The position numbers were made by a program, and so were the translations under genes. From the NCBI RefSeq assembly GCF_001484685.1, contig NZ_CP012200.1, positions 1,668,321 through 1,732,320 of the forward strand: DNA of 64,000 nucleotides. Direction: 5' to 3'. Shown piece by piece: positions 37,004 to 56,424 of this stretch; position 1 is the stretch's first letter, and every line of letters starts with the position of its first letter. A model generated the notes under the pieces. That model was not told the origin of the DNA. It made no database searches and saw only the letters and a list, made by a program, of their open reading frames with translations. The DNA comes from Thermococcus sp. 2319x1 (GTDB lineage Archaea > Methanobacteriota_B > Thermococci > Thermococcales > Thermococcaceae).

Positions 37004-38323
37004 TTGAACCTGAAAATCACTATGACAATAACGCTGGTAATCTTGCTTATTTCTGCTGGCCCGGTTACCTCAAACTCCCCTCAGAATCAGAACCCTAAAA
37101 TTCTGTTTGTGTGCAGCGACTTGGAAGACGTTACACTGGCGAATTCTTTCGGGGATGACGTTGACATCCTTTACCTCGGCAAAGACCTTCCAGATGATCG
37201 CTCTCTCCTATCCGATATTCTGTATCTTTCCAAATACGATGAAATATGGATTCTCGACCTCAACGTCCAGTGGACAGAGGGTGGAAGGCTGAATGAAGGG
37301 GAGATAGAGACGCTGGCGGAGTACGTTGGGAGCGGCGGTGTCCTCGTTGTTGGCCTCAACACCTACTCCCAGAGCTGGAGCAGAAAGCTGGACAATGTCT
37401 TTGGGGTCAAGATACTGCGTGTGGAGAGACCAGTTGAGGACGGGGAGGATTGGGACATAGTGTTTGGCGGTAAGGTTTACCCCTATAACGACACCTACCA
37501 AGAAGTAGTTGTCAGAACAGCGGGCGCAAAGGTTATTGCAGCTTATAAGAACGGAAACCCCGCCGTAACGATGAACCACTATGGTTCTGGTGTTGCCGTC
37601 CTGATGACATTTAACCCGATAAAAGCCTATGTTGAGGTAGACCATTCTTTCCTCGAGGTTTATCTGGCGATTTCTAGCGAAGCCTTGAAAGAGAGAAAGA
37701 ATCCTCCCACTGTGGGTACTGCTAAGAAGACGTTGATCCTTTTGAAGAGAGTTCTGCTTCATCCGCTTACCCTTGGGCTAATTGCCTTTATCTTCCTCGA
37801 ACTTCCTGCGTATCTTGGCTTCCTGCCCGTAGATCTTACAGTTTTCTTTGTGGCTCCACTGGTGCCCTTCTGGGGCCGCATTAAGAAAAGAAAAAGGTGT
37901 AAACACCTCCTTGAAGCTATCTCCGTGATGAGAGGGGTTACCATATCCAAACTGGCAGAAGAGATGGGGGAGAAAGCCCGTCGCTTAAAGTTCTGTGTGG
38001 CCGTCCTTAAGCTGAAGAGAACGATCAGCATGCTGGATATCTCCCGGCTTGGCGAGAAGGACTATCTTATAACCCTCCACGGTCTTGAGGCCGAGGGCGT
38101 TGCGGCATGGATGATAAAGCGGTATCCACGCCTCATGGAGAAAATAGCCTCTCATCCAGGGATTACCATACTTGACCTAGCTCGCACCTCAAACATGCCT
38201 CCCTACGAAGTCCTTGAGCTGCTCAGGGAGATGTCTAGGTATGGAGTTGTTGAGATACGAAAAATGCCCTTCGACTACGAAGTATACCCCACCAGAGCCC
38301 TTTCGAGGTGGTTTGAGGAATGA
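37004..38323 (+). CDS. membrane-bound winged-helix regulator with extracellular domain
   Basis: A 439-residue protein. A signal peptide (about 1-23) precedes an extracytoplasmic Rossmann-like domain (30-230; IETLAEYVGSGGVLVVGLNTYSQSW, MNHYGSGVAVLMTFNP). Two transmembrane helices follow (about 247-290, LGLIAFIFLELPAYLG and LTVFFVAPLVPFWG). The cytoplasmic part contains winged-helix segments (VTISKLAEEMGEKARRLKFCVAVLKLKR; ITILDLARTSNMPPYEVLELLREMSRYGVVEI). The layout suggests direct signal transduction from outside to DNA. The start is TTG with GGGGATGATGG upstream. It overlaps the GT2 gene by 4 bases. A related protein is encoded at 39672. Confidence 0.75.
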   Translation: MNLKITMTITLVILLISAGPVTSNSPQNQNPKILFVCSDLEDVTLANSFGDDVDILYLGKDLPDDRSLLSDILYLSKYDEIWILDLNVQWTEGGRLNEGEIETLAEYVGSGGVLVVGLNTYSQSWSRKLDNVFGVKILRVERPVEDGEDWDIVFGGKVYPYNDTYQEVVVRTAGAKVIAAYKNGNPAVTMNHYGSGVAVLMTFNPIKAYVEVDHSFLEVYLAISSEALKERKNPPTVGTAKKTLILLKRVLLHPLTLGLIAFIFLELPAYLGFLPVDLTVFFVAPLVPFWGRIKKRKRCKHLLEAISVMRGVTISKLAEEMGEKARRLKFCVAVLKLKRTISMLDISRLGEKDYLITLHGLEAEGVAAWMIKRYPRLMEKIASHPGITILDLARTSNMPPYEVLELLREMSRYGVVEIRKMPFDYEVYPTRALSRWFEE

Positions 38324-39678
38324 GGAGAAAGGTTTTTTCGTATCTCTCTGCTTATATAGTCTCCGCGTATGTGGTCTATCTGGAATATTCCTTTCTCCAG
38401 TGGGCCAGCTGGAAGTCAGTTCTCGTAGTTTTCGGGTCTGAAGTCGACAGATACTCTGTTTACTCCTTCGTCCGCTACCTTTTCTACCTCACCGGGGCTT
38501 TTATCATACTCTTTTACAGTGCTTATTTCATCTTCTACCTTTACTACCGGTCGAATGAGGGGCTTATCAAACTCCCCCGCTTCTATCCTACAGTGTCGAT
38601 TGTGGTGCCCGCCCACAACGAGGCGATGAATATAGAGAGGTTCATCGAGAGTGTTGAGTATCAGGATTACCCTCGTGAACTCGTTGAAGTCATAATCGTT
38701 GATGACGGAAGCCAGGATGAAACATCTGAGATAGCATCGAAATACGGGGTGAAGATAATCCGACACGAAAAAAACCTTGGAAAAGCTCAATCTCTGGAGG
38801 ATGGAATAAAATCTGCGAATGGAGAGGTTGTACTAACGATGGATGCCGATTCGTATTTTGGGAACGGGTACTCCTTGAGGAGGATCGTCGAGAGCCTGTA
38901 TGAACGCCCCTTCATTGGGATTTCAACTGGGGTGATAAGGATAGAGCAGCGGTTTGGAAGCCTGCTCGAGAAATTCCAAGAGATAGAGTTCCTGCATTCA
39001 TTTGAAGTGGGGAGAAGAGTCCAGGGTTACCTTGGCTGGTTACTCGTTGTTTCCGGCGCTTTCTCAGCTTTTAAGAGCTATTTTATAAAATCCCTACCCG
39101 CACTTCCAAAGGATACTCTGGCTGAAGACTTTGACCTCACGGTTATAGCCTTCAGGGTAGGGCTTGACTCAAATTTTGAGCCCGGAGCCATCGTATACAC
39201 CGAGCCGGAAATGAGCTGGAAAAGGCTGTACCGTCAGAGGATACGGTGGTACTACGGCGGTCTTCAGGTTTTGAGTAAGCACCATGACCTTATTTTGAAT
39301 AGGAAATACGGGGAGAAGGGCCTCTTCATGTTTCTTCACCTAATTCTGCTGGAGTACGTTCTGGCGGTTCTTCAGATCATAGGGATGATTCTCCTACCCC
39401 TTATCGTCCTCTCCAGGCACTTTCTGGGAATTGCCATAACCGACATAAACCTGCCTCCGGACGTTATGGCGTTTCTGTTCCTCGTTGTCATCTCTACCCA
39501 GTATCTGCCGGCCATATTTATGAGCACCGTTGTGGTGGCCATTGAAAGAAGTCCAAGGAGAGCTTTGAGAAACTTCCCTGCGATCTTTCTATACTACCTC
39601 CTCTACAACCCTCTGCTCTCCCTGGCAAAACTAGATGCAACGTTGAGGTTTCTCAGGGGGGTGGATCAGGAATGGTGA
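38320..39678 (+). CDS. processive GT2 glycosyltransferase
   Basis: A 452-residue membrane glycosyltransferase of family 2, like cellulose, chitin and hyaluronan synthases. Two N-terminal helices precede a GT-A domain with SIVVPAHNEAMNIERFIES, VDDGSQDETSEIA, MDADS (DxD) and EDFDLTV. QRIRWYYGG is the Q/RxxRW motif of processive enzymes, followed by C-terminal membrane helices. It likely polymerises and exports a polysaccharide or builds a surface glycan. The genes on both sides overlap it, so it is in one operon with the membrane regulators and archaeosortase. Confidence 0.9.
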   Translation: MRRKVFSYLSAYIVSAYVVYLEYSFLQWASWKSVLVVFGSEVDRYSVYSFVRYLFYLTGAFIILFYSAYFIFYLYYRSNEGLIKLPRFYPTVSIVVPAHNEAMNIERFIESVEYQDYPRELVEVIIVDDGSQDETSEIASKYGVKIIRHEKNLGKAQSLEDGIKSANGEVVLTMDADSYFGNGYSLRRIVESLYERPFIGISTGVIRIEQRFGSLLEKFQEIEFLHSFEVGRRVQGYLGWLLVVSGAFSAFKSYFIKSLPALPKDTLAEDFDLTVIAFRVGLDSNFEPGAIVYTEPEMSWKRLYRQRIRWYYGGLQVLSKHHDLILNRKYGEKGLFMFLHLILLEYVLAVLQIIGMILLPLIVLSRHFLGIAITDINLPPDVMAFLFLVVISTQYLPAIFMSTVVVAIERSPRRALRNFPAIFLYYLLYNPLLSLAKLDATLRFLRGVDQEW

Positions 39679-40967
39679 GGGCATCACACTTCTTCGCGCT
39701 TATTGTGGTTGCACTCTTCACTCTTTTACCACCTGTTGTTGCCTTTACGGTGGTTTACGTTGCTTCCGATCCGGGGGACATTCCGCTTTACAACGCCATT
39801 TCGAACCGTACTGGAGTCCTCCTCAGCAAGGAACCATCGGGAAACCTGATAGTTGCACTCGACGTAAACTATGCTTTTCTGAACGGGAGTGACAAAGACC
39901 TTCCAGTGAATCTTATTGGTGAGGCTAAGAAAGGAAAAACGGTTATAGTCGGGCTGAACACACTGAGGGCAGTCGAAAAGGTAAATCCAAGGATTCTGGA
40001 ATTCGCCGGGATACAGCTGAACTATACAACTGTGGGAATACTCCCGATTGAACCTAACGGCCTTCTTAAGTTTGAAAAGTTTGGGTACGATTCCGACAGA
40101 TATGGGCTCGTTATTGTACGTGCAAGAAACTCGAAGGTTCTCCTTGATTCGGGGGGAATGCAGATAGTTACTGAGATTTCCCTCGGAAAGGGAAAGCTTG
40201 TTGTGGTAGGAATCAATCCAACGGCCTACTATCTGGACACCAGCAATCCTGGGGTGGTGGAGTTTGTTGTTTCCCTGATAGACCACTACTCTCGCCCCGG
40301 TTCTTCACGGGCCCTTCTGGTGGGTGGCGCCCTTGGAGCGGCAGTTTTGGCTGGATACGCGGCGACTTCGAACAATCCGCATGTACAAAGGTTTAGAGAG
40401 CTGATCAAGTCATTTCCCGTAATCGTTATCGGCCGCTTCCTCACGCCCCCCGCGGAGGTTCTGCAGAACAGTACAAGACGGGGAATATACGAGTACATAA
40501 AAGCCAAGGGATACTCAACTCTCATCGACGTGGTTTCGACCTTTGGGATATCAAGAACAAACGCAAAGTGGCACTTACGTGTCCTTACCAGGGCAAAGCT
40601 CCTTGAGGAGACGAATGTCGGCAATACAATCGTATTTCACCCAATCGGGAAAAAGGAAGAAGCCATCAAGCTCTTCCTGCTCGAGAACAAGACACGGAAA
40701 AGGATTTATGAACTCATAATTGAGAGACCGATGGGGGTGAGTGAGCTCTCCCGGTTACTCGGTGTGAGCAAGTCGACGGTTCATCACAACCTCACCACAA
40801 TGGAGGAGTACGGTCTCGTAAGGAAACGGGAGGATGGGGTGTATGAGGCGATTAAATCTGTCTCAGGAGAGAAAGAACATTCTGGTACTGATAGTCTATC
40901 TCACGGTGTTTCCGGTAGTAACATTGTTGATTGGCTTCGCGGTGGGGAAGCCCCTCACGAGGATTGA
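39672..40967 (+). CDS. second membrane-bound winged-helix regulator
   Basis: A 431-residue protein with the same plan as the gene at 37004: signal peptide (about 1-24), extracytoplasmic domain with LIGEAKKGKTVIVGLNTLRA and LGKGKLVVVGINPTAYYLDT, a membrane segment near 210-227 (ALLVGGALGAAVLAGYA), and two cytoplasmic winged helices (YIKAKGYSTLIDVVSTFGISRTNAKWHLRVL and IIERPMGVSELSRLLGVSKSTVHHNLTTM). The last 40 or so residues read through the start of the archaeosortase gene and look unlike natural protein. So the C-terminus may be altered by a late frameshift or lost stop. Confidence 0.75.
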   Translation: MVRASHFFALIVVALFTLLPPVVAFTVVYVASDPGDIPLYNAISNRTGVLLSKEPSGNLIVALDVNYAFLNGSDKDLPVNLIGEAKKGKTVIVGLNTLRAVEKVNPRILEFAGIQLNYTTVGILPIEPNGLLKFEKFGYDSDRYGLVIVRARNSKVLLDSGGMQIVTEISLGKGKLVVVGINPTAYYLDTSNPGVVEFVVSLIDHYSRPGSSRALLVGGALGAAVLAGYAATSNNPHVQRFRELIKSFPVIVIGRFLTPPAEVLQNSTRRGIYEYIKAKGYSTLIDVVSTFGISRTNAKWHLRVLTRAKLLEETNVGNTIVFHPIGKKEEAIKLFLLENKTRKRIYELIIERPMGVSELSRLLGVSKSTVHHNLTTMEEYGLVRKREDGVYEAIKSVSGEKEHSGTDSLSHGVSGSNIVDWLRGGEAPHED

Positions 40968-41361
40968 GGCATCTAATATCCATCTCTTGCTCGGAACTTT
41001 TGGGATAGACAACTACCTCATTGGAAAGCAGGTATATCTCCCCACGGACAGGATATCCTTTGAAATAACCTGGCAGTGTAGCGGAACCTTTAGCATGACG
41101 CTTTACACCCTGATTTACCTCTTCCTCCCCGGACTTAAGAAGAAACCCCTTGAGTGGCTCTTTGGAGTTTCAACCTTATACATCGCAAACATCTTCCGTG
41201 TGTTCTTTTCTATCTATCTCTACCACCGATTTGGGAAGGGTGCCTTCAATACGTTTCATTATACAATTGGGCCAATCCTGCTGTTCCTACTTGTTGTCTT
41301 CCTCATAGCCAATGCATTTTTGCTTGGTTTGAGGTCTTCCGGGAAATCCCCCAAATTTTGA
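40843..41361 (+). CDS. archaeosortase/exosortase-family transpeptidase
   Basis: About 172 residues with five to six transmembrane helices. The catalytic triad of the exosortase/archaeosortase family is visible: Cys in EITWQCSGTFSMTLYTL, Arg in ANIFRVFFSIYLYHRFG, and His in FNTFHYTIG. These enzymes cut C-terminal sorting signals of exported proteins and join them to lipid or other anchors. ATG at 40843 (GGGGTGT before it) is used; ATG at 40834 is possible. It overlaps the preceding gene by about 125 bases in another frame. A likely substrate is the next gene. Confidence 0.88.
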   Translation: MRRLNLSQERKNILVLIVYLTVFPVVTLLIGFAVGKPLTRIEASNIHLLLGTFGIDNYLIGKQVYLPTDRISFEITWQCSGTFSMTLYTLIYLFLPGLKKKPLEWLFGVSTLYIANIFRVFFSIYLYHRFGKGAFNTFHYTIGPILLFLLVVFLIANAFLLGLRSSGKSPKF

Positions 41362-41387
41362 GAATTTTTACCTATTTTTGGGGAGAA

Positions 41388-41398
41388 AGATTTAAATA
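41388..41398 (+). promoter_or_regulatory. TATA box upstream of PEF protein gene
   Basis: GATTTAAATAT lies about 30 bases before the DtxR-like palindrome at 41428, which would then cover the transcription start. A second TATA-like GTTATAAAAG at 41467-41476 is closer to the gene. Confidence 0.45.
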
Positions 41399-41427
41399 TT
41401 TTAGCTTGGTACTATCCAATTAGGGGA

Positions 41428-41441
41428 TTAGGGAAACCTAA
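41428..41441. promoter_or_regulatory. DtxR-like palindrome TTAGG-GAAA-CCTAA
   Basis: An exact copy of the TTAGG-N4-CCTAA motif, preceded 8 bases earlier by another TTAGG half-site (41420). It lies 70 bases before the start of the PEF-motif secreted protein and just before the 18-base repeat at 41445. Confidence 0.6.
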
Positions 41442-41444
41442 CCC

Positions 41445-41462
41445 GTTTGAAGAACTGACTAA
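41445..41462 (+). repeat. second copy of the 18-base promoter repeat
   Basis: GTTTGAAGAACTGACTAA differs in one base from the copy at 36017-36034. It lies 50 bases before the start of the secreted PEF protein. Confidence 0.6.
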
Positions 41463-41511
41463 ATATGTTATAAAAGCGAAAGTCGAATAATTTTTGGAGG
41501 CGATGGTGAGG

Positions 41512-42249
41512 ATGAAGTTTGCGAGACCGGGTATCATTGGAGTCACCCTCATCCTCGTTCTCGCAGGGTTAAACAACGTTAGCGGTGCCCAGATAAGTGG
41601 GAAGATGCTCCACGTCTGGGACCACAGTTTGGAGAGCTCCTACTATGTGTATAGATATGTCGGAAATGACAAACCTCTAAATATCCAGTGGGATGCCATA
41701 GTGACCAATTATAATACGGGAGACCAATACGTAGCTATCATGGCAGTGATTGATGACAGTGGATATGCATGGGGCTTTTTCTGGAGAAACGGGACGGTGG
41801 TTATCTTCTCCAACACGGGTGATCCCTCCTCGGACACTCCGGTCAAAGATACTAACGTCGATGGGTCATCCCTACATACTTACAGGATTGAGGTCGTCTA
41901 TAACAAACGGGGGAAGGTAAAAAAGCTGGTGTACTACATAGATGACAATAAGGTATACACGGAGCCTGATGCACCTCCCGGGAACATACGCTACATCGCT
42001 GCGGCGGGAATTTTCCGTGGGGGAAAGGAGTTCGACATGTTTATAGACAACGTTGAGTACACCTATTCGGAGGGAACGATAAGCGAAGACTTTGAAGACG
42101 GTCAGGACGACTTCTTTGTCTGGGGACTCGCCGGTACCGATGACGGCAAGAGTGGAGCAGAAGTTGTTGACAGCGCGCAGGTTCCTGAGTTCCCCTTCCT
42201 TGAGCCAATCTTTGACTATCTCTCTTCAATAGTTGGATTAAACTGGTGA
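41512..42249 (+). CDS. secreted protein with C-terminal PEF motif, likely archaeosortase substrate
   Basis: About 245 residues. A signal peptide (GIIGVTLILVLAGLNNVSGA) leads to a beta-rich domain resembling LamG/jelly-roll or polysaccharide-binding folds (MLHVWDHSLESSYYVYRYVG, HTYRIEVVYNKRGKVKKLVYYIDD, FDMFIDNVEYTYSEGTISEDFEDG). The C-terminus has VPEFPFLEPIFDYLSS, a Pro-Glu-Phe motif as in PEF-CTERM proteins. However, the following stretch is short and lacks the usual basic tail. The archaeosortase gene lies just upstream. ATG at 41512 follows GGTGAGG. Confidence 0.7.
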   Translation: MKFARPGIIGVTLILVLAGLNNVSGAQISGKMLHVWDHSLESSYYVYRYVGNDKPLNIQWDAIVTNYNTGDQYVAIMAVIDDSGYAWGFFWRNGTVVIFSNTGDPSSDTPVKDTNVDGSSLHTYRIEVVYNKRGKVKKLVYYIDDNKVYTEPDAPPGNIRYIAAAGIFRGGKEFDMFIDNVEYTYSEGTISEDFEDGQDDFFVWGLAGTDDGKSGAEVVDSAQVPEFPFLEPIFDYLSSIVGLNW

Positions 42250-42253
42250 GCAT

Positions 42254-44755
42254 ATGCTTAAAATCAGGAGCACTAAACTTCGAGAGATTCCTTTTATACT
42301 GTCTGTTTTTCTCCTCTCCTTGGTGGTGTTAAGGGGCTTCCTCTCCCCCGGCTATCCTCCCTCATGGGGCGGCGATTCTTATGGTCACCTCTTCAAAATC
42401 TGGAAGCTCATACATGGCTACAAGCCCTGGATTGCGGACTGGTACGGTGGTTATCCGTTCCTCCGGTTTTACCCGCCGCTTGCATACTTCATCGGTGTAT
42501 TTTTTGGAAAAATAACTTCGTCTACAGTTCTCGGGTACAAGTTCACCGTGCTGTTCTCGATCCTCCTTGGGGCAATCTCCGCGAGGCTTCTCCTCAGGGA
42601 GCTTGGTTTTTCTGACGCTTCATCTTATCTGGCTGGAATCGTCTATGCGTTCTCTATCTACCACCTGAGGGTTCTCGCGCCTGAGGGGAACTTTCCAAGA
42701 TTCGTTGCCCTGAACGTTGCACCCCTGTTCCTTTTGGCGTTCCTCTATGTAACCCGCAGAAACTGGAAATACTCCATACTCTCCGGACTGTTCCTGGCCA
42801 TTGTGGGACTTACACACCATACGCTCTTCGTGAGCTTTGGCCTGCCCGCGCTCTTCATGATACCCTACCTCTGGATAACGCGAAAGGAGAATATCAGGGG
42901 GATAGCCATCAAAACCGCCATAGCTAGTACCGTCGCTTTCTCAATTTCGGCCTTTTGGGTTGTTCCGTTTTTGCTGGAAAAGAACAACGCTCATTTTCTG
43001 AATGAGAATAGCATTGAGTACCTCTTTAAGTTCCAGAGCGTTAAGCTGGAAGACTTTCTATTTCCCACCTCCCCATGGTCGTTCTACCAGGGAGTGGCTT
43101 TCTATCTGGGAATTGCTGGTGTTGTACTTCTCCTACTGAAGCGGGAGAAGCCTGAGAAAGCGCTTGGAGCGGGCCTGCTTGGGGCTTCTCTTACAGCCCT
43201 ACTGCTTTCGCTTGGCTATTACGGCCCCACGCCTTTTCTAAACAGGCTTCCCCTTCTCAACATGATTCCTCCGTACAGATGGCTCGACAGCCTTTCGCTC
43301 GTCGGTGCAATTGGAATGGGGGTTCTCTTCGAGGTTCTTGGTGAGTCCCTCTCTCAGAAAATCGAAATCAATGCGGCTAGAAAAAGCATAGTGGTGGGGA
43401 TTTTCCTCGTGTTTCTCGTTATCCTATCCCTATCAGACGTCAGGCTTCAAACCGATTCATTAAAGGCCGAGGACTTTCCCGGTGATTACCTTGCGGTTCT
43501 TAACTATATGGGAAACGACAACTCGACAGGCTGGAGGTTCTACCAAGCGGGCCTTGAAATAACCCAGGGCTCGAGGGTGTCCTGGGCACCTGCTCTTGCT
43601 GGTAAACCCGCCCTCGAAGGGTGGTACCGGCAGGGAGACCCAGCCTATCCCCAGCACAGCTACCTCAACTATGCCATCGAAAATGAACCCGGCTTCGCTG
43701 AGAAGGCCCTCAGAGCATATTCCATAAAGTACATCCTAACGGACGAACACTACAAGGGTTACAGCGCCATAGTGAAGAACCTGAAGGACTTCGGCTTTGA
43801 GGAGGTCTATTCCTCCGGTTCGTTCCACCTCTACCGCTGGAGCAACTTCACCTTCCTCCAGCCAAAATCAAGCGTCCTCGTTGTTGGAAGCTGGCCCTTT
43901 GATCTGGGAGTTTCTTATGAAAAGGCCGAATACGTGGACGACTACGCAGACAGGCTGAACGAGTACTCCGTAGTAATCCTCAACGCTTACAAGTACCGCG
44001 ATCCTCTGGTCTGGGTCGATCTTGAGGAATACGTTAAAAACGGTGGAACTCTCGTGCTGAACACTTTTCTAAGTCCAGACGCCGAGGCAACCCGCTTCGG
44101 TGTGAAGTCGGTTATAGTCAGGATTCTCGGAAGGGCAAACTTAAGCTCTTCTATCTACAACGTCTCTGCCTTCTCGAATTTCACCTACGAAGGCCAGCCG
44201 TGGACCGCCACAGCCTACGAAGGCGATCTAATCTCCCTGATAAAGCTCGGGAACTATGCCATGCTCGGGTATAAAGATTACGGCTCCGGTAGAGTTTACT
44301 TCATCGGCCTAAACCTGCCATACCACTCGGCTTATACCGGCAACGAGTATGAGGCAGAGATCATTAGGGAGCTTTTAAAGGACTACATCAAGCCGCCGAA
44401 GGTTTCCTACGCCATTATTGAGATGGAGGATTGTTACATAAAGCTGGGCTTCAACCTCTCGCGCTCCTCTACAGTCATCGTTAGCGAGAACTACTATCCA
44501 CACTGGAAGGCATACGTTGATGGAAAAGAAGTCGAAATAAAGAAAAACGAGGAGTTCGGCCTTATTGAAGTCGCACTTACCGCCGGAAACCACGTTCTTG
44601 AGCTTAAATTTGAGGACCCGTTCCTTCTCCTCAGGTATGTGAGCGTTGTGGCATTGATCGTGGTGGTTCTAATTCTGGGCATTCCTGAACGATGGATCAA
44701 AGCCAGTAAAAAAGCGAAAAATGAAGGCACACAAATCAAGGAGATGCCGAAGTGA
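42254..44755 (+). CDS. large polytopic membrane protein, PTPS-related/GT-C-like
   Basis: An 833-residue membrane protein with about a dozen N-terminal helices and a final C-terminal one. GGDSYGHLFKIWKLIHGYKPWIADWYGGYPFLRFYPPLAY near the N-terminus and VGLTHHTLFVSFG match the 6-pyruvoyl-tetrahydropterin-synthase-related membrane family, which looks like GT-C glycosyltransferases or YfhO. A soluble extracytoplasmic domain (about 480-800) ends before the last helix (VSVVALIVVVLILG). It starts 4 bases after the PEF protein, so glycan transfer to surface proteins is a reasonable inference. Confidence 0.8.
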   Translation: MLKIRSTKLREIPFILSVFLLSLVVLRGFLSPGYPPSWGGDSYGHLFKIWKLIHGYKPWIADWYGGYPFLRFYPPLAYFIGVFFGKITSSTVLGYKFTVLFSILLGAISARLLLRELGFSDASSYLAGIVYAFSIYHLRVLAPEGNFPRFVALNVAPLFLLAFLYVTRRNWKYSILSGLFLAIVGLTHHTLFVSFGLPALFMIPYLWITRKENIRGIAIKTAIASTVAFSISAFWVVPFLLEKNNAHFLNENSIEYLFKFQSVKLEDFLFPTSPWSFYQGVAFYLGIAGVVLLLLKREKPEKALGAGLLGASLTALLLSLGYYGPTPFLNRLPLLNMIPPYRWLDSLSLVGAIGMGVLFEVLGESLSQKIEINAARKSIVVGIFLVFLVILSLSDVRLQTDSLKAEDFPGDYLAVLNYMGNDNSTGWRFYQAGLEITQGSRVSWAPALAGKPALEGWYRQGDPAYPQHSYLNYAIENEPGFAEKALRAYSIKYILTDEHYKGYSAIVKNLKDFGFEEVYSSGSFHLYRWSNFTFLQPKSSVLVVGSWPFDLGVSYEKAEYVDDYADRLNEYSVVILNAYKYRDPLVWVDLEEYVKNGGTLVLNTFLSPDAEATRFGVKSVIVRILGRANLSSSIYNVSAFSNFTYEGQPWTATAYEGDLISLIKLGNYAMLGYKDYGSGRVYFIGLNLPYHSAYTGNEYEAEIIRELLKDYIKPPKVSYAIIEMEDCYIKLGFNLSRSSTVIVSENYYPHWKAYVDGKEVEIKKNEEFGLIEVALTAGNHVLELKFEDPFLLLRYVSVVALIVVVLILGIPERWIKASKKAKNEGTQIKEMPK

Positions 44756-44774
44756 GGTTTCTCCTTTCCCATTT

Positions 44775-45144
44775 CTCCACTCCGCCTTCGGCCTGGAAGA
44801 ACACGGCGCGAAAAACGCCACCACCCTCGTCCCATCGCTTATGTGGTTCTGCCAGACGTTTGGGAATATGAACTCAAGATAGCCACACCATGCCGGCTTT
44901 TTCGGCAACGTGGTAGGTCTTGACCCTGAACTTTTCGGGAACTTTGTAGTTCCTTCCGAGCGCCGGGATGAGCCTTACCAAACCACCTTTCCTGCAGAAA
45001 GCCCCCCCTCCTGTGCACGCAGAAGTCCTCAAGGGCGTGAACTTTCCCTTTGCTGTCCCTCCAGAAAACTATGTCTTTACCGAGCCTTCTAACACCTACG
45101 GGCTTTTTCCCAACTTCCTTTGACGAAAGGACCGCGAACCACAT
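44775..45144 (-). pseudogene. wrecked Rieske-type oxygenase
   Basis: The N-terminus MWFAVLSSKEVGKKPVGVRRLGKDIVFWRD and ALEDFCVHR (first CxH of a Rieske [2Fe-2S] site) are clear. The second CxxH is gone. In other frames come LIPALGRNYKVPEKFRVKTYHVAEKAGMVWL and EFIFPNVWQNHISDGTRVVAFFAP, pieces of a vanillate-demethylase-like oxygenase. Internal deletions removed most of the roughly 330-residue protein. Its start (AAGGTGATAGC ATG) lies 46 bases after the heliorhodopsin stop, so it once formed the end of that operon. Confidence 0.82.
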
Positions 45145-45190
45145 GCTATCACCTTGGAATAAGCAAAAACCCAAATTCAAAAATAAAACC

Positions 45191-45934
45191 TCAAGGCTGG
45201 AGAGTTCCAGCGTAGACCTGCCACACGAGTATGGTCTTCGAGACGAGGCTCAGTATTATGTATACCTTCTCGCCGTGGAGATAGTCCGCCCATTTGCCCC
45301 ACTTCTTGTACTGGAGTACCATGTTGAGCGGGAAGAGGTTGAAGAACACCGCTATGCTGACGAATATCCATATCACGAAGCCCGGCGGGTTTGAGCGGAG
45401 AATTGTCATGAATATCACTACCCACGGCATTATCCCCGTGAAGGAACCGAAGATGAAGGGACTCCAGTTAACCTTCTCGGTGTACTGGTTGAGGAGCTCC
45501 ATGAGGTAGCCGAAGAATATCATGGCCGCGTTGATTGAGAAGATGAGAATCAAAGCTCCTATGTCCGAGATGCCGACGAGGAGGGCTATGATGACCACCA
45601 TGATTGAGGAGGTCACCGAGTACTCGGCCCAGCGGTAGGGGTTGATGCCCTTCGAGAGGTTCCTCCTGTAGGAATCAAAGAGCACCGTTGAAACCGCGAG
45701 ATGGGCCAAAGCCGTTAGGAACGGGAAGAGGGCTATGAGATACACCAGCTTGACCTCAAAGAGGTTCTCCGTTACCGTTAGGAGGTTCCTAGTGGCCTCG
45801 TCAAACTTAAGGTAGTTTCGGGTTACGGTAACGGCGAAATCGCTGGAAAGCAGGAGTATGAGAACACCCTGTATCAGGTGAAACACTCCCGCTATCATGT
45901 TGAGCCTTTTCAGCGACCTAAACTTGTCATCCAT
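45191..45934 (-). CDS. heliorhodopsin
   Basis: A 247-residue seven-helix protein matching heliorhodopsins, the inverted-topology retinal proteins. Diagnostic segments are IAGVFHLIQGVLILLLSS, NPYRWAEYSVTSSIMVVIIA (E104, counterpart of counterion E107 in HeR 48C12), FGYLMELLNQ, NWSPFIFGSFTGIMPWV, and LSLVSKTILVWQVYAGTL with K233, the expected retinal Schiff-base lysine. Numbering uses ATG at 45934 (AGGTGATGTAC upstream). Heliorhodopsins are proposed light sensors or regulators rather than pumps. It lies between an SDR gene and a broken Rieske oxygenase on the same strand. No carotenoid or retinal synthesis gene is obvious here. Confidence 0.93.
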   Translation of the reverse strand: MDDKFRSLKRLNMIAGVFHLIQGVLILLLSSDFAVTVTRNYLKFDEATRNLLTVTENLFEVKLVYLIALFPFLTALAHLAVSTVLFDSYRRNLSKGINPYRWAEYSVTSSIMVVIIALLVGISDIGALILIFSINAAMIFFGYLMELLNQYTEKVNWSPFIFGSFTGIMPWVVIFMTILRSNPPGFVIWIFVSIAVFFNLFPLNMVLQYKKWGKWADYLHGEKVYIILSLVSKTILVWQVYAGTLQP

Positions 45935-45990
45935 GTACATCACCTAACTATCTGGTACGACAATGGTGTATTTATAGTTTTTCCAGCTTA

Positions 45991-46773
45991 TCACTCCGCG
46001 TAGATCATCTTGACCGTCATTCCGCCGTCAACGACGAAGTTAACGCCCGTTATAAAGCCGGCCTTTTCATTATCGGCCAAAAAAGCACATATGTGGGCTA
46101 TGTCCATTGGCTCTCCAACCCTTCCAGCCGGGTGCTGCTCGTGGTCTATGGGTCTAAGATTTGGCTCGGAGCGCAGTTTTGACTTCTTCCAGCGCGACGT
46201 CTCTATCCAGCCCGGGCTTACGGCCACCACCCTGATTCGATACTTCGCGAGGCTTATAGCTAAGGAGTGCGTTAATGCCAGAAGGCCACCTTTGGAAGCG
46301 GAATATGGCTCCGTGTCCGGCTCGGACATTAAAGCCCTTGTGCTCGCGATGTTGATGATAACTCCCCCTCCGCGCTTTATCATCTCCTCTGCTGCATAGC
46401 GCGAGCATATGTATGGCCCGGTAAGGTTCACCCTTATTACCCTCTCCCACTCTTCGAGCGTTCTTTCAAAAATACTCTTGACGGACATTATCGCTGCATT
46501 GTTGACGAGTATGTCAACTCCCCCGTAGAGCTCGACGGTTTTTTTGATCATGTTCTTTACCGACTCCTCGTCGGCAACATCTGTCTTTATGAAGGTCACC
46601 TCAAGGCCCCTCTCGCGGAGCATTGCCTCCCTTTCCTTTCCGGCTTCTTCGTCTATCTCCGCTATCACCACTTTCGCCCCGTTTTCGGCGAAAAGCTGGG
46701 CTATTGCCGCACCGATGCCCTGCCCCCCACCTGTAACGATTGCAACTTTATCCCTAAGGTTGTAGGTTGTCAT
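45991..46773 (-). CDS. short-chain dehydrogenase/reductase
   Basis: A 260-residue classical SDR. TGGGQGIGAAIAQLF is the NAD(P)-binding glycine motif, NNAA the structural motif, and S143-type Ser, YSASKGG (Tyr/Lys) the catalytic residues; AISLAKYRIRVVAVSPGWIET and VDGG follow. Acidic residue after strand 2 (VVIAEIDEEAG) favours NAD. Substrate unknown; sugar, alcohol or retinoid-type substrates are all seen in the family. It lies 18 bases after the second betaine-type binding protein and 56 before heliorhodopsin, so all may share one message. Confidence 0.9.
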   Translation of the reverse strand: MTTYNLRDKVAIVTGGGQGIGAAIAQLFAENGAKVVIAEIDEEAGKEREAMLRERGLEVTFIKTDVADEESVKNMIKKTVELYGGVDILVNNAAIMSVKSIFERTLEEWERVIRVNLTGPYICSRYAAEEMIKRGGGVIINIASTRALMSEPDTEPYSASKGGLLALTHSLAISLAKYRIRVVAVSPGWIETSRWKKSKLRSEPNLRPIDHEQHPAGRVGEPMDIAHICAFLADNEKAGFITGVNFVVDGGMTVKMIYAE

Positions 46774-46791
46774 TACAAATCCCCCCAGCGT

Positions 46792-47586
46792 TTAAACACC
46801 GAGACTGACCAGAAATTCCTCCGCTATGTCCTCTTCCTTCTTTCCTCCGAAGTCAAGCATGTGGTTGAGCCTCCTCATAGTTTCGGTGCTTATCCTGCCT
46901 TCCAGCGCCTTCAACGCCTTCACTGCTCCCTTGGGAAGCCCTCTGGCTATTATGATGGCCTCGTAGGGCGGTATGGCCTTTTTATCGTCCTCAAGGAGAG
47001 CAAGCCTGTAGGCGTCAACCCTCGCATCGGTTGTGAAGGCCGTGATCACATCTACTTCGCCCTTCGATATGGCTTCATACATCTCCCGGGGCATAAGGGG
47101 CTTTATCTTCCCGAACTCAAGGCCGTAAACTTCTCTAAGCCTCGGCAAACCATCGGGCCTCTCGATGTAGGGGGCGGGACAGGCGAAGGTGAGGCTTTTC
47201 GATATCCTCGCGAGGTCGCTTATCCTCTTCAGCCCTTCACCCTCCGCCAGCTCTTTCTTTACCGCGAGCGCAAAGTCGTTCCTGAAGCCGAGCCTCGCGA
47301 TTACCTCTATTCCCCTCTCTCTGAAGCCCTCTCTCACGGCTTCAAAGACTCTTTCCTCGTCCCACTCCTCCATTGGCGGGAGCTTAAGAAGGGCGTTGTA
47401 AGCCGTTCCTGTGTATTCCACATAGATGTTTATCTCCCCCTTTTCAAGCGCCTCGATGTTTGCCTCCAGCCTCGGTTCGCTCACCCTCACCTCGTACTCA
47501 AAGCCTTCCCTTTTCAGGAGCTTTCCGATCACATGGGCGAGGATTCTCTGCTCGTTGAAGGGCTTTGCCCCTATAACAATCCTCAC
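46792..47586 (-). CDS. OpuAC/ProX-type binding protein lacking a signal peptide
   Basis: About 264 residues of a glycine betaine/choline/carnitine-type substrate-binding protein: [60 protein letters not shown]-like region and VITAFTTDARVDAYRLALLEDD. It closely parallels the lipoprotein at 49951 but begins directly at the mature domain with no signal or lipobox. GTG at 47586 follows GGAGGTG; GTG at 47595 adds nine polar residues only. It could be a cytoplasmic ligand sensor or a truncated paralogue. Confidence 0.85.
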   Translation of the reverse strand: MRIVIGAKPFNEQRILAHVIGKLLKREGFEYEVRVSEPRLEANIEALEKGEINIYVEYTGTAYNALLKLPPMEEWDEERVFEAVREGFRERGIEVIARLGFRNDFALAVKKELAEGEGLKRISDLARISKSLTFACPAPYIERPDGLPRLREVYGLEFGKIKPLMPREMYEAISKGEVDVITAFTTDARVDAYRLALLEDDKKAIPPYEAIIIARGLPKGAVKALKALEGRISTETMRRLNHMLDFGGKKEEDIAEEFLVSLGV

Positions 47587-47587
47587 A

Positions 47588-48205
47588 TCACCCACCTCCT
47601 ATTCCCTTTGGAGTAACCCTCTTTTCGAGGTAGGAAAAGCTGATATCAATAAACACCGCCATCATTATGGCCGGGATCGAGCCGGCAAGGATTTTGTCCG
47701 TGTTGAAGCTGGCCAAGCCCTCAAAGACCAGACTCCCCAGCCCCCCTGAGCCGATTATAGCCGTCAATATCGCTATCGAGTTGGCCAGAACAGCGGCGAA
47801 CTTTATCCCCGCGAACATCGCTGGATAAGCATGTGGAAAGCGGACGTACCTTATGATCTCCCACTCAGTGAGCCCAATTCCCCGGGCAGCGTCTATCATC
47901 GCTTCATCCACTTCACTAAGCCCCACGTAGGTGTTCTTGACTATGGGGAGAAGTGCCCGGAGGAATATTGCGAAAACCGCGGGAGTGAAGCCTATCCCGA
48001 GGAGGGGAACCACTATGGCAACAACGGCAAAGCTCGGTATAGCCTGGACAAGGTTGGCGAAGCCGGTTATAAATGAGGCTAACCTTTTGCTCTTGAGTGA
48101 GAGTATAGCTAAGGGTATCCCAACCGCTATGCTCAGGAAGAGGGAAGCATAAGTCAAAACGAGGTGCTCCCCAAAGGCCCCAAGAACCCTTTCAACGCCT
48201 ACCAT
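47588..48205 (-). CDS. betaine/choline-type ABC permease
   Basis: A 205-residue inner-membrane permease of the OpuB/ProW class with five or six helices. The EAA-type loop LPIVKNTYVGLSEVDEAMIDAARGIGLTEWEIIRYVRFPHA contacts the ATPase. It overlaps the upstream permease by 14 bases. Two different permeases suggest a heterodimeric channel. Confidence 0.92.
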   Translation of the reverse strand: MVGVERVLGAFGEHLVLTYASLFLSIAVGIPLAILSLKSKRLASFITGFANLVQAIPSFAVVAIVVPLLGIGFTPAVFAIFLRALLPIVKNTYVGLSEVDEAMIDAARGIGLTEWEIIRYVRFPHAYPAMFAGIKFAAVLANSIAILTAIIGSGGLGSLVFEGLASFNTDKILAGSIPAIMMAVFIDISFSYLEKRVTPKGIGGG

Positions 48206-48821
48206 AGCGATCCCTCAGATAGCGTTCTATCAATGCAGCAACCCCATCCAGTATTAATGCAAGAATCCCAACCCACAAACCGGTGACTATGATTATGTTC
48301 CTATCATAGAGATGTATGCCCGTCTGTATCGGCGCCCCAAGGCCGCCGGCCGCTATAAGGCCACCGAGTGTAACGACGCCCATGGTAAAAACAACCGCTA
48401 TCCTTATTCCTGCGGCTATGAGCGGTAAAGCCAGGGGAAAGCGGACCTTAAGGAGTATCTCCATCTCACTCAGCCCTATCGCTTCGGCCACCTCGATGTA
48501 GCTCCTCTCAACGCTCGTCAGCCCGGTATAGGTGTTCCTCGCTATGGGGAGGATGGAATAGAGAACGGAAGCCGCTATGGTGGGCTTCTCCCCGAGGCCG
48601 AGGAGGGGAAGGAGAAGGACGAGGAGTGCGAGCGTTGGCACCGTCTCAAGGATGTTCAGGACGTTGAACGCTATTGGAGCCAGCTTCGGCCGCCTGTAGA
48701 GCACAAAACCTAAAGAGATGCCAATAACGAGGGCCAGACCCAGCGCTATTCCGAACATGCGGAGGTGCTCAAGCGTTCTTTGGGTGAGGTTCTGGCTCTC
48801 CCATACCCATCTAATGTCCAT
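48192..48821 (-). CDS. betaine/choline-type ABC permease
   Basis: A 209-residue permease paralogous to the next gene: LPIARNTYTGLTSVERSYIEVAEAIGLSEMEILLKVRFPLALPLI is its EAA loop. Helices are clear at about 18-40, 50-75, 145-165 and 175-200. It starts 9 bases after the ATPase stop. Confidence 0.92.
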   Translation of the reverse strand: MDIRWVWESQNLTQRTLEHLRMFGIALGLALVIGISLGFVLYRRPKLAPIAFNVLNILETVPTLALLVLLLPLLGLGEKPTIAASVLYSILPIARNTYTGLTSVERSYIEVAEAIGLSEMEILLKVRFPLALPLIAAGIRIAVVFTMGVVTLGGLIAAGGLGAPIQTGIHLYDRNIIIVTGLWVGILALILDGVAALIERYLRDRYGRR

Positions 48822-48830
48822 TGGAGACCC

Positions 48831-49925
48831 TCACAAGAGCTTTAAAAGAACTTCATTAGCAAGTAAAATGCCAATGGGCTTTTCCCTCTCAACTACAACT
48901 CCAAGAAAGGCATTCCTGCGTTTCATCTCAGCCAGGGCGGAAGCGAGTGAATCACCGGGAGAAAATACAAGGGGCTCCATGAGAGCTTCCTCTAAATCCT
49001 GCGACTTTAATAGAGATTTTAAATCCGTAACCCCTTTAAGTGCCCCTTTTTCCACCATAACTGCAAATTCAAGGTTTCTATCTTTCATCCACTGGAGCAA
49101 CTCGTCCTTTCTCTGCACTTCCACCGTGTATTTCCCGGCATCCACCATGAGGTCTTTCACCTTCAGGGTGTCGAGATGCTTGAACTTCTTGTCCGCATTA
49201 ACTAACTTAGCGACGAACTCATCCGCTGGATTGAGGACGAGCTCATCAGGATAGCCGATCTGGATGAGCTTTCCGTCTCTCATTATCGCTATTCTATCCC
49301 CGAGCTTGAAGGCCTCCTCTATGTCGTGGGTTACGAAAACAATGGTCCTCCCGAGAACTTCTTTTATTCTCAAGAACTCTTCCTGAAGTTGTTTCCTCAA
49401 GATTGGATCTAAAGCGCCGAAGGGCTCATCCATCAACAGAAGAGGGGGGTTTAGAGCGAGGGCCCTCGCGAGGCCAACCCTCTGCTGTTGACCACCGCTT
49501 AGCTGGTGAGGATAACGAGTGGCGAAGTCTTCAGGAAGGGCCACAAGGTTCAAGAGCTCTTTAACCCTCTTATCAATCTCTTCCTCACTCCGGCCCTCCA
49601 GTTTCAAAAGAAGCCCTATGTTATCTCTCACGGTCATGTGGGGAAAGAGTCCTATCTGCTGGATAACGTAACCAATGCTCCTCCTGAGTTTTACAACATC
49701 AAACTCCCCAATGTTTCGCCCATTGATAAAAATCTCCCCCTCATCTGGCTCCACAAGGCGGTTTATAGTTCGCAGAAGAGTGGTTTTGCCGGAGCCGCTT
49801 GGCCCTATGAGTATTAAAAGCTCACCGCCTATGATCTCGAGATTGACATGATCGACAGCCGTGAAATCTCCGTATCTTTTTGTAACATCTCTGAGCTCGA
49901 CGGTTTCTATTCTTTCGAAGAGCAT
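48831..49925 (-). CDS. betaine/choline-type ABC transporter ATPase
   Basis: About 364 residues. Walker A GPSGSGKTTLLRTINRL, Q-loop VIQQIGLFPHMTV, signature LSGGQQQRVGLARALALNPPLLLMDEP with Walker B, and FVTHDIEEAFKLGDR H-loop are intact. The C-terminal part (about 245-364) has the CBS-type regulatory pair known from OpuA, which senses ionic strength. ATG at 49925 with GGTGATTGAA is preferred to upstream in-frame starts. Confidence 0.94.
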   Translation of the reverse strand: MLFERIETVELRDVTKRYGDFTAVDHVNLEIIGGELLILIGPSGSGKTTLLRTINRLVEPDEGEIFINGRNIGEFDVVKLRRSIGYVIQQIGLFPHMTVRDNIGLLLKLEGRSEEEIDKRVKELLNLVALPEDFATRYPHQLSGGQQQRVGLARALALNPPLLLMDEPFGALDPILRKQLQEEFLRIKEVLGRTIVFVTHDIEEAFKLGDRIAIMRDGKLIQIGYPDELVLNPADEFVAKLVNADKKFKHLDTLKVKDLMVDAGKYTVEVQRKDELLQWMKDRNLEFAVMVEKGALKGVTDLKSLLKSQDLEEALMEPLVFSPGDSLASALAEMKRRNAFLGVVVEREKPIGILLANEVLLKLL

Positions 49926-49950
49926 TTCAATCACCATAAAGAAAAAGGAA

Positions 49951-50853
49951 TCAGCCCTTAAGGAGGCCTTTCTCAATTAAAAACTCCCCCGCTATTTCCC
50001 TCGCATCCTTCTTTTCTACGTCGTACTGGTAGTTTAGAGCGCGCATGGTGTCGGTGTCAATGAGCCCCCCGAGCTTCTTGAGGACCTCCACTACTTCCGG
50101 ATATTTGTCGGCGAACTCCTTCTTTATTAAAATCACGGCATCGTAAGGGGGTAGAGCTCCTTTATCGTCCTCGAGGATTTTGAGGCCGAATAAGTCAACC
50201 CTCGCATCGGTCGTGTACGCTGAAATCGCATCAACCTGTCCGTTCTTTATTGCCTCGTACATAAGCGTTGGCTCCATCTGCTTTACTTCCCCAAAGGTGA
50301 AGCCGTAGACCTCCTTAATCCTCGGCAGGCCGTCCGGTCTCGTTGCGAACTCCGGGTCGGTTCCTAATGTCATCTCAGGTGCGTATGGAGCAAGATCACT
50401 GAGTTTTTCTAAGTTGTTCTTCTCTGCAAATTCTTTCTTAACGGCTATCGCGTAGTCATCCCTAAAGCCGAGCTTTACGAGGGTTAGAATACCATCGCGC
50501 TTTAACATCTCCTCCTTGCTCCTCTCATAGACGTAGTCGGGGTCCCACTTTTCAGGAGGCTCAAGCTTTAGGATGTTGTTGTAGGCTGTTCCGGTATATT
50601 CTACATAGACGTGAATCTGGCCCCGTTTTAACGCCTCGTAGTTGACGAGGGTTCCGCCGAGACCCTCCTTAACCTCTGCCTTGAAGCCGTTCTCCTGAAG
50701 GAGAAGAGCTATCATGTGGGCTAAGATGTACTGCTCGTTAAAGGGCTTGGAACCTATCACTATAGTGGGAACCTCCTCCTTCTGGCCGATGCAACCGCTT
50801 AAAAAAGCGACTACAATCAAACCAGCTAAAGCCAATGCACCAATTCTGTTCAT
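49951..50853 (-). CDS. betaine/choline-type substrate-binding lipoprotein
   Basis: A 300-residue binding protein with signal [15 protein letters not shown], a lipobox Cys that anchors it outside. The mature part has [58 protein letters not shown] and [22 protein letters not shown] as in OpuAC/ProX/OsmX. First gene of the transporter operon. Compatible solute or choline are likely ligands. Confidence 0.92.
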
Positions 50854-50932
50854 CCTTACACACCGATATTTAATTGTTCGGTCTCTCTAATAAAGTTTTC
50901 GAAAAATTAAAAACAAAAGTACAGAATTCGAA

Positions 50933-51742
50933 CTAACCGAGCATTGAGTCAAGGAAAAGCATTACATAAAAGCCCAAAAAGAAGCCTGCAGTTACCAAAA
51001 GTTCATTCTCTTCGTGTTTGTAAATCTCCGGAATCATCTCCTTCACGGTAACGTAGAGCATAGCTCCACCGGCAAGTCCGAGACCATAGGGGAGCAAACC
51101 ATGGAATATGGTGAAGAAAAACGCCCCCACAAGAACCATGACCCATTCCGCAACTCCACTTAGAGCACCCATCAGAATGGGCTGAAACCTTTTCTTTTGA
51201 AGGGTCGCAAGGGGCAATGAAACAACTGTCCCCTCGGGGAAGTCCTGTATACCAATGGCTATTGCCGTCACAACTCCTGTCTTTAGGTCAAACACAATGG
51301 AAGTCCCAACGGCCAGGCCTTCGGGAAGGTTGTGTATTATGACCGCCAATACTATCAGCCAAACGACCCTCAGCTTATCCTTAAGTTCTTCTGGTCCCTC
51401 GTAGCCCTTGACAAGGTGCTCATGAGGTACAAAGCGGTCGATAGCGTATATGAGGAGTATGCCGAGCAAAATCCCCACTCCAGCCGGTGTAAAGCCATCA
51501 GCAGCTTCAATCCCCGGGAGTATTAAACTCGTAAAGCTCGCAACGATCATTACTCCAGCGGCGAATGATAAGCTAAAGTCCATTCCCCAGTCAGGCATCC
51601 TATGGGATATTATCGCAAGTAGAGAGCCAAGAGTTGTCATTAAAGCCACAAAAAGACCCGCATAAAAAGCAACCATCATCAAGCTACCATTTGAAACCGC
51701 AAGAAGGTAAGTGCTCAGTGACGTTATGAAGTTCTCTAACAT
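50933..51742 (-). CDS. ZIP-family divalent metal transporter
   Basis: A 269-residue transporter with eight helices. The ZIP signature is complete: HNLPEGLAVGTSIVFDLK in helix IV and IGIQDFPEGTVVSLPLA in helix V. The His-rich loop of many ZIPs is reduced to VPHEH. It should import zinc, iron or manganese. A TTAGG-N4-CCTAA palindrome (51745-51758) abuts the ATG, so metal-dependent repression is very likely. Confidence 0.93.
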   Translation of the reverse strand: MLENFITSLSTYLLAVSNGSLMMVAFYAGLFVALMTTLGSLLAIISHRMPDWGMDFSLSFAAGVMIVASFTSLILPGIEAADGFTPAGVGILLGILLIYAIDRFVPHEHLVKGYEGPEELKDKLRVVWLIVLAVIIHNLPEGLAVGTSIVFDLKTGVVTAIAIGIQDFPEGTVVSLPLATLQKKRFQPILMGALSGVAEWVMVLVGAFFFTIFHGLLPYGLGLAGGAMLYVTVKEMIPEIYKHEENELLVTAGFFLGFYVMLFLDSMLG

Positions 51743-51800: not shown

Positions 51801-53135
51801 TCAAACCGGGGTCACGTGACCCCACTTTTCTAATGCCCTTGCGAGCTCCTTGTGTGTCTTCGCGTACTCCTCCAAAGCAATTCCCTGCATTATGGCATCT
51901 ATAGCCTGCCTGACTGCCCTCGCTCCAGCGGCGGGTCCGTCAGGGTGACCGAGGGTTCCCCCGCCGAGCTGGAGGACAACGTCGGTTCCTAAAGCCTCTA
52001 TGACCGCTGGCAAGTTGCCCGGATGTAATCCACCGGAGCTGGTCGGGAATGCTGCTCTTATGCCGTAGAACTTCTGCTCAAGGTGGAAGACGTCGTTTTC
52101 ATCGGGCTTGTAATGGGTTTCCCTTAAGATTCTGGCGTTTTGAATAACGTCCCACTTGCCACCTTCGAGCTTTCCAGCACCAGCAGTTCCAACGTGGAGC
52201 TGGTCGATGCCTATTAACCTGTAGAGCTTAGCAAGGACGAACATTGAGATGCCGTGATATGGGTTCCTCGTGAAGGTAGCGTGCATCGCCCTGTGGCCGT
52301 GTATAGCGAGACCATAATCTTCAGCCAAATCCCTTATGTATTCCAGAGCACCCCAGCCGGTTATGACAACATCGACCATCGCGTGCTTGAGACCAAGGTC
52401 TGCAAGGAGCTCAAGTCTGGTTTCCATTTCCCTTATGTCCGCAGTAATGTTGGCGAACCACGTCTTCTTTTCCCCGGTTTCGTTCTCGACTTTTTCAATT
52501 ATTCTCGCCATTATCTCTGCTCTCTCCTCGAAGCGGTTGTACCACGGGCTTGTAAGATTTTCATCGTCCTTCATGTAGTCGGCACCGTTTGAAAGGAGCT
52601 CATAGGCAAGCTTCTCAAACTCCTCCGGTGAATAGCCGACCTTTGGCTTTGGAACCACACCGTAGAGGGGCCTATCTTTGATTTCAAGCATCTTTCTTAC
52701 TCCCTCTATACCAAAGGCAGGTCCGTTGAACTCTCTGATTATTTTCTCGGGCAGGTAGAGATCCTCAAGACGGAGCCCTTTCACTCTTTTCATTCCAAAG
52801 ACGTTTCCAGCAATGCTCGCAAGAAGTCCCGGTAAATTGGCTTCTTCAAAAGTGTGGAACGGATAGGCGATCTTAACTATCCAGCTGCCATCCCCCATGT
52901 CGTGGAAGTCGTAAGCTTTTGCAGATAGATCCGCCCACCTTTCCTCCTCATACCATGGATAGAGGGTAGTCCAGGTTCCGGTTGAGCTCTCCGCGGCAAC
53001 TCCTCCGGCCGCTTGCTCAATAGTGTATCCTTCAGCTGGAGTTATCCTAAAAACGGCTATGATATCCCTCTTCTTGCTGGGTTCATAGCCTTTGTCCACA
53101 TAGTAGTCATATATCTTGTCAAACTTTTCAGGCAT
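51801..53135 (-). CDS. rbcL: type III ribulose-bisphosphate carboxylase
   Basis: A 444-residue archaeal form III RuBisCO. GVVPKPKVGYSPEEF contains the catalytic lysine, GADYMKDDENLTSPWYNRF the carbamylated lysine with Asp-Asp-Glu metal ligands, and the GLHPGNLPAVIEALGTDVVLQLGGGTLGHPDG loop binds phosphate. In Thermococcales it works with AMP phosphorylase and ribose-1,5-bisphosphate isomerase to recycle AMP into 3-phosphoglycerate; these partners are not in the window. ATG at 53135 follows GGAGGTG. A metal-type palindrome lies 20 bases upstream. Confidence 0.97.
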   Translation of the reverse strand: MPEKFDKIYDYYVDKGYEPSKKRDIIAVFRITPAEGYTIEQAAGGVAAESSTGTWTTLYPWYEEERWADLSAKAYDFHDMGDGSWIVKIAYPFHTFEEANLPGLLASIAGNVFGMKRVKGLRLEDLYLPEKIIREFNGPAFGIEGVRKMLEIKDRPLYGVVPKPKVGYSPEEFEKLAYELLSNGADYMKDDENLTSPWYNRFEERAEIMARIIEKVENETGEKKTWFANITADIREMETRLELLADLGLKHAMVDVVITGWGALEYIRDLAEDYGLAIHGHRAMHATFTRNPYHGISMFVLAKLYRLIGIDQLHVGTAGAGKLEGGKWDVIQNARILRETHYKPDENDVFHLEQKFYGIRAAFPTSSGGLHPGNLPAVIEALGTDVVLQLGGGTLGHPDGPAAGARAVRQAIDAIMQGIALEEYAKTHKELARALEKWGHVTPV

Positions 53136-53155
53136 TTTTCGCACCTCCTTGTTCG

Positions 53156-55335: not shown

Positions 55336-56424
55336 TCACAGTTCCTCTACGCCAACTCCGGCTTTTATCTTTTTCTCCAGCATAATTGCCTTTCTTATGT
55401 CCTCCATAACGACCGCTCCAACTATCTTGCCTCCTTCAAGGAAAACTTTTGTCTTCTCATCCAGCCACTTACCCTCTCCCCTTGTTTTTCCAATCAGGGC
55501 TATTGGGAGATCACCGAATTTAAAAACTGTGGAACGGAATTCAAAGTCATACCTGTCTTCTCTACCTTTTAAAATGTTGGCAAGAACTCTCGCGTGCCCC
55601 ATGGCGGCTTTTGCGGTGCCGCAGACTATTCCATTGTACTCGGCACAGTCCCCAATCGCATACACATCCTTTGCCGAAGTTCTAAAGCGGTCATCAATCA
55701 ATATCCCTCTTCCAGCGTGAATACCGCTTTTAACGGCTATTTCCTTGTTGGGAACGATTCCAAAGGCGCATATCTTAACTTTTCCATTTACGTAACCCTT
55801 ATCCGTAAGAACTCCCCCTTCATCAGCTTTGAATGCATCTGCATTGAGATAAAACTCTACACCATTGCATTCGAGCTTTTCCATTATTATTTTCGTGAGC
55901 TCTTCATCAAGGCCAAGAAGATTATTCCTTCTGTGAACCAGCTTAACTTTGTAGCCTGCCTTTGCCAGATTCCCGGCAAGCTCAAGGCCGATGAATCCCC
56001 CACCAAGTATCAGGACGTCTTCATATCTTTCTATTTGCTCCTTAATCCTCTCGGCATCCTGGAGTGTTCTAAGGGTGTGTACAAACTCCTTGCCCTCAAG
56101 AGTCGGTTCTCTTGGCCTGGCACCGGTGGCTATAACTAAGACATCGTAGGATATCTCGCCTTCACTTGTTATCAGCCTTTTTCGAGCCCTGTCTATTAAC
56201 TCCGCCCTTACTCCCAGATTCAGGTCTATTCCTTTCTTTTCGTACCATTCAAGGGAATACGGGAAGAGCTTTTCCTTCTCAATGAACCCTGCTATGTAAT
56301 GGCTTAACATGGGTTTACTGTAATGGGGAACCTTCTCCTGCTCAACTATGCTTATCTCTTCTCCAGAAAGCTGATTGGCCAGCTCTACTCCTCCGGGTCC
56401 ATTTCCAACTATGACAATCTTCAT
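55336..56424 (-). CDS. NAD(P)H:rubredoxin oxidoreductase
   Basis: A 362-residue FAD enzyme of the pyridine-nucleotide-disulfide reductase fold without redox Cys pair. [13 protein letters not shown] (FAD Rossmann), [32 protein letters not shown] (NAD(P) Rossmann) and [11 protein letters not shown] are in order. Length and neighbourhood fit NROR, which feeds rubredoxin for SOR and rubrerythrin. ATG at 56424. Confidence 0.92.

Follow-up and report, generated by a model that had tools for sequence, protein, structure and literature searches.

What does a heliorhodopsin (HeR) gene do in an anaerobic hyperthermophile, between an intact gene for an SDR-family dehydrogenase and the remains of a gene for a Rieske oxygenase? 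The locus raises two further questions, namely how a cell without a carotenoid pathway provides an opsin with its retinal, and why selection maintains an O2-dependent enzyme in an anaerobe, Rieske oxygenases requiring O2 and the hosts considered here being anaerobes. The roles of heliorhodopsins are largely open, and a partner found exclusively with HeR in one archaeal family is a clean, testable case, helped by small genomes and by one natural loss of the partner. The window, by which we mean the whole stretch of 64,000 nucleotides that was analysed, covers positions 1668321-1732320 of the single chromosome (1,961,221 bases) of Thermococcus sp. 2319x1. An earlier reading made from the letters alone (the sequence-only reading) had described the three minus-strand genes as one operon concerned with the chromophore, and profile searches recovered all three in place, with gaps of 56 bases between SDR and HeR and 46-48 bases between HeR and Rieske.

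The HeR gene occupies 45191-45943 (minus strand) and starts either with an ATG at 45934, which gives 247 aa and the published numbering, or with a GTG at 45943. That its product is a true heliorhodopsin with E104 and K233, as had been claimed, is borne out by a full-length match to the Pfam profile Heliorhodopsin PF18761 (E=7e-98, 327 bits, cut-off 26.7), by the NCBIfam model NF038020 (335 bits, cut-off 100) and by the nearest solved structure, TaHeR (6is6, E=5e-76), alignment to which places the Schiff-base K233 in TM7 and the counterion E104 in TM3; equivalents of both residues are present in all six HeR relatives from Thermococcaceae. The homology search that had been named as a possible refutation thus places the protein inside the family. 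From the full-length agreement with the family profiles and with solved structures, its topology is assumed to be inverted, with a cytoplasmic N-terminus. A 2319x1 heliorhodopsin has been expressed and reported to bind retinal, with absorption at 530 nm (Kim et al. 2021, PMC7807009), and its FDEA 44-47, M145, M205 and S232 are discussed in that paper; numbered from the ATG at 45934, the protein of the window has the same residues at the published positions, next to E104 and K233, and, the strain being the same, it is almost certainly the protein expressed there (NTH/TcHeR). Retinal binding, which the sequence-only reading had called unexpected and had proposed to check together with the spectrum, had therefore already been reported in print; the paper differs from the present work in treating spectra only, and the operon, the neighbour and the Rieske remnant are absent from its text.

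The adjoining Rieske gene is a pseudogene. Its remnant (44805-45144, minus strand; PF00355 plus VanA_C type) matches PF00355 over its first 47 residues (E=1.6e-10), and three pieces of it are recovered in the window by protein search. The damage was read from a DNA alignment to the intact copy of a relative (locus L014 of G070), in which the gene after HeR encodes a Rieske oxygenase of 321 residues. A gap of 1 base and a deletion of 52 bases have cost the Rieske motif its C-x2-H half; a deletion of ~310 bases took the N-x2-D-x2-H-x4-H iron site, and a third deletion, of ~1360 bases, the C-terminal third together with the gene that follows, so that neither the [2Fe-2S] motif nor the catalytic iron site is complete. 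The third deletion is marked by a fused piece at 44741-44806 (minus strand), which aligns with L014 7488-7553 (97% over 66 bases) and whose counterpart in L014 lies ~1.36 kb further on, past both Rieske and the membrane-protein gene that follows it. The claims that the oxygenase gene is broken and that the opsin, here full-length, outlasted it are both upheld. Sequencing error was rejected as the cause, since deletions of 52, ~310 and ~1360 bases are not read errors, and the near identity of the surviving pieces to L014, gaps aside, indicates that the loss is recent.

Two observations concern the surroundings of the break. The gene directly after Rieske (L014 7911-8642 in G070; L015 8171-8614 in G069) encodes a membrane protein of ~240 residues without Pfam or NCBIfam match, deleted in the window and absent in G073. 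In the window, a plus-strand block at 37004-44755, missing from the corresponding site of G070 and G069, carries an archaeosortase-like gene (40834-41361, called from sequence) and encodes a large membrane protein (PTPS_related); the block abuts the broken gene, and the deletions may be connected with its acquisition.

The pairing itself extends beyond this strain. Among 94 Thermococcaceae genomes, profile searches find HeR (PF18761) in seven and a Rieske domain (PF00355) in four, the Rieske gene lying directly downstream of HeR in all four; co-occurrence alone, with adjacency uncounted and in genomes that are not fully independent, gives a hypergeometric p of 1.1e-5. The search for intact Rieske genes that had been proposed as a check is answered by three relatives (G069, G070 and G073), in whose intact pairs HeR and Rieske stand 48, 50 and 75 bases apart. 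In a tree of 76 HeR sequences, those of Thermococcaceae fall into two groups that are not clearly joined, one (A) with the window, G070, G069, G073 and G035, the other (B) with G079 and G081, and within the Thermococcaceae set Rieske is confined to group A. Three of the seven HeRs (G035, G079 and G081) have no Rieske partner, and the window has kept HeR without a working Rieske gene, which together imply that HeR does not need Rieske.

The pair occupies two unrelated chromosomal sites, one in G073 and the other in G069, G070 and the window, and between G073 and G070 its proteins have diverged in step (81% identity for HeR, 77% for Rieske). Pairwise dN/dS is 0.07-0.13 for HeR (well-diverged pairs of clade A) and 0.08-0.095 for Rieske (intact pairs), values of about 0.1 that indicate purifying selection on both genes, so that both proteins appear to be in use. 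These data bear on the proposal that one transfer joined HeR to an unrelated Rieske gene and that the two have merely travelled as one ever since without being linked in function. A single joining event could account for the pair, and the block in the window, nearly identical to that of G070 although the genus is different, evidently spreads by transfer; however, the genes have kept their order and tight spacing through ~20% protein divergence and a change of chromosomal site, and both are strongly constrained, and we regard mere hitchhiking as improbable.

Outside the family, no Rieske-like protein was found within 1.5 kb of HeR at ~60 sampled loci in Thermoplasmatota and Actinobacteriota, and a protein search found nothing matching this Rieske in six HeR genomes from the same class, on which grounds the pair was rejected as a general HeR feature. 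A plasmid or virus origin was likewise rejected, the two HeR plasmids having no Rieske neighbour and a viral scan yielding no relative. The pair looks like a Thermococcus invention, or an import whose donor was not found in the sampled genomes. We found no report of a heliorhodopsin paired with a Rieske protein in the literature, the sole match being a SAR202 pangenome paper; what looks new here is the pair and its exclusive linkage within Thermococcaceae, the HeR of the strain being already known. In one class relative (G111, L032 544-1944), a photolyase-like gene, called from sequence, lies directly upstream of HeR, an arrangement that agrees with the reported HeR-photolyase association.

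Does the SDR gene belong to the same unit? It is intact (45991-46773, minus strand; PF13561/PF00106) and is bordered on its far side from HeR by a glycine-betaine-type (OpuC/OsmF-like) ABC importer (46792-50853, minus strand; OpuAC PF04069 E=7e-50, ABC_tran, synteny), which comprises two binding proteins, two permeases and one ATPase. Only three loci, those of G069, G070 and the window, have SDR beside HeR, and they share the importer as well; orthologues of the SDR, at 90-92% identity, are found in G079, more than 1.2 Mb by coordinate from the HeR of that genome, and in the HeR-less G077. The SDR is thus a lineage-specific neighbour that is not tied to HeR, contrary to its earlier inclusion in the system, and an ancestral three-gene operon was rejected, G073 having HeR and Rieske only. 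It had also been said that relatives whose neighbours never include SDR and Rieske genes would speak against the arrangement: both are there in G069 and G070, and Rieske alone in G073. The window and G070, which belong to different genera, share ~90% DNA identity over a 6.8 kb block (window 44741-51664 against L014), most block proteins being 93-99% identical and several flanking ones 67-83%, a difference most simply read as a recent transfer between genera.

The promoter signals point the same way. A TATA-like element, TATAAATA, at 45966-45976 (minus strand), ~42 bases 5' of the HeR ATG, is the probable promoter of HeR itself; such elements stand 36-53 bases before the HeR start in most loci, comparable at G073, G035, G070 and G081 and weaker at G079 and G069, and no consistent promoter-like element precedes Rieske in the loci compared. 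HeR and Rieske would on this pattern probably form one transcript and SDR a separate transcription unit, so that of the operon proposed earlier the HeR-Rieske part probably holds and the SDR part is doubtful.

With regard to the retinal, phytoene synthase (PF00494) was found in none of the seven HeR genomes (controls positive in 7), the RPE65-type cleavage enzyme (PF03055) in none of 11 (controls positive in 2), and the Blh-type enzyme (PF15461) in none of the 94 Thermococcaceae genomes, a search that had no positive control. Neither phytoene synthase nor an enzyme that cleaves carotenoids, the two parts of an endogenous pathway, was thus detected among the genes that the sequence-only reading had suggested looking for; de novo retinal is unlikely, and the cell would be expected to scavenge it. 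The same reading had suggested that SDR and Rieske made or altered the chromophore. In its present form, Rieske, with or without SDR as a possible retinol dehydrogenase, would make or alter the chromophore from a scavenged carotenoid, retinol or apocarotenoid. Retinal must be obtained somehow by hosts that lack phytoene synthase and the RPE65-type enzyme, and the Rieske gene is linked exclusively to an opsin. Direct support and a pathway were nevertheless not found: the closest solved relatives of the Rieske protein are small-molecule oxygenases of the VanA/SxtT/NdmA type, with saxitoxin-type compounds, methylxanthines and dicamba as their substrates, and no Rieske protein is known to form retinal. 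The SDR, moreover, occurs without HeR, has the glucose 1-dehydrogenase subfamily NF005559 as its best named model above cut-off and dihydroanticapsin dehydrogenase and bacterial SDRs as its closest solved structures, and shows no specific similarity to retinol or retinal dehydrogenases, and Rieske-less HeRs persist. A part in making the chromophore is accordingly hard to credit.

As for the oxygenase, the intact copies of G069, G070 and G073 have C-x-H...C-x2-H, N-x2-D-x2-H-x4-H, the HQD motif and a third Asp ligand, and the two copies scanned match PF00355 and PF19112. In these domains, in both metal-site motifs and in their ~320 residues they resemble VanA/SxtT/NdmA/DMO-type oxygenases, from which they differ in their anaerobic hyperthermophile host, in their pairing with an opsin and in sequence (among the plasmid-encoded relatives listed, the best are 28-31% identical). 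A structure predicted from the single sequence had a mean pLDDT of 34 and was not used.

The habitat also needs correcting: strain 2319x1 comes from a tidal-zone, organic-rich hot vent (PMC4853606), so the earlier "presumably dark" is wrong. Heliorhodopsins have been reported to modulate a neighbour-encoded ABC transporter (PMC11109279), photolyase (PMC9769723) and, as cited in PMC11109279, glutamine synthetase. The present locus resembles these systems in that HeR stands beside a gene whose product it may modulate, and SDR is already among the ten reported neighbour classes; it differs in that a Rieske oxygenase is outside the ten and that the link is exclusive within an archaeal family.

The explanation we prefer, at a probability of roughly 0.4, is a two-gene cassette, with HeR first and a Rieske non-heme iron oxygenase second, that moved among Thermococcus genomes and in which HeR, loaded with scavenged retinal, modulates the neighbouring oxygenase by light. 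The retinal could come from the remains of algae or plants carried into tidal vents; HeR would sense light and act on the oxygenase through its cytoplasmic face, by analogy with the reported systems; and some small compound, hydrophobic or aromatic, would be oxidised by the enzyme with O2 brought in by surface water. Strain 2319x1 has lost the oxygenase, and its HeR may have been kept for another role, probably in photo-oxidative stress, in which it would resemble the Rieske-less HeRs of G035, G079 and G081. Several points count against this explanation: HeR persists where Rieske is broken or missing, the HeR loci sampled outside Thermococcus show no Rieske gene within 1.5 kb, and an O2-requiring enzyme sits oddly with anaerobic hosts. 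A stricter version, in which HeR with scavenged retinal switches a dedicated Rieske enzyme so that O2 chemistry runs only in lit, oxygenated surface water, seems unlikely to us. A role for light is weaker at least for the other HeR clade (B), one member of which, G079, we take to be perhaps T. sibiricus from an oil reservoir, a dark place.

The oxidative-stress genes around these loci fit a light-modulated oxygenase but also a different account, in which HeR and Rieske are co-transcribed in a response to O2 and light exposure without contact, Rieske clearing harmful compounds, aromatic or derived from O2, close to the vent surface. Near the window HeR they encode rubrerythrins, an NAD(P)H:rubredoxin reductase, a peroxiredoxin and an ODP protein of flavodiiron-like type; those near the G073 pair are peroxiredoxin-like, FMN reductase and SufBC-like genes (some called from sequence only). 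An association of HeR with redox genes has been reported in other phyla as well (PMC8612252), and HeR often lacks Rieske. However, adjacency within 48-75 bp at two unrelated sites is tighter than shared use in stress needs, and the HeR of G035 sits in a sugar-transport-like setting (called from sequence) rather than a stress one, and this account seems to us somewhat less likely than the light-modulated oxygenase.

Two further features of the window deserve mention. At 33352-34389 (plus strand), an encapsulin (Linocin_M18) shell domain follows a fused rubrerythrin-like ferritin domain, in a cluster with rubrerythrins at 32446, 35409, 53275 and 54736, the rubredoxin reductase at 55339 and the peroxiredoxin at 59034. 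Near the shared block, a RuBisCO large-chain gene lies at 51804-53144 (minus strand), at a place where G070 and G069 lack it.
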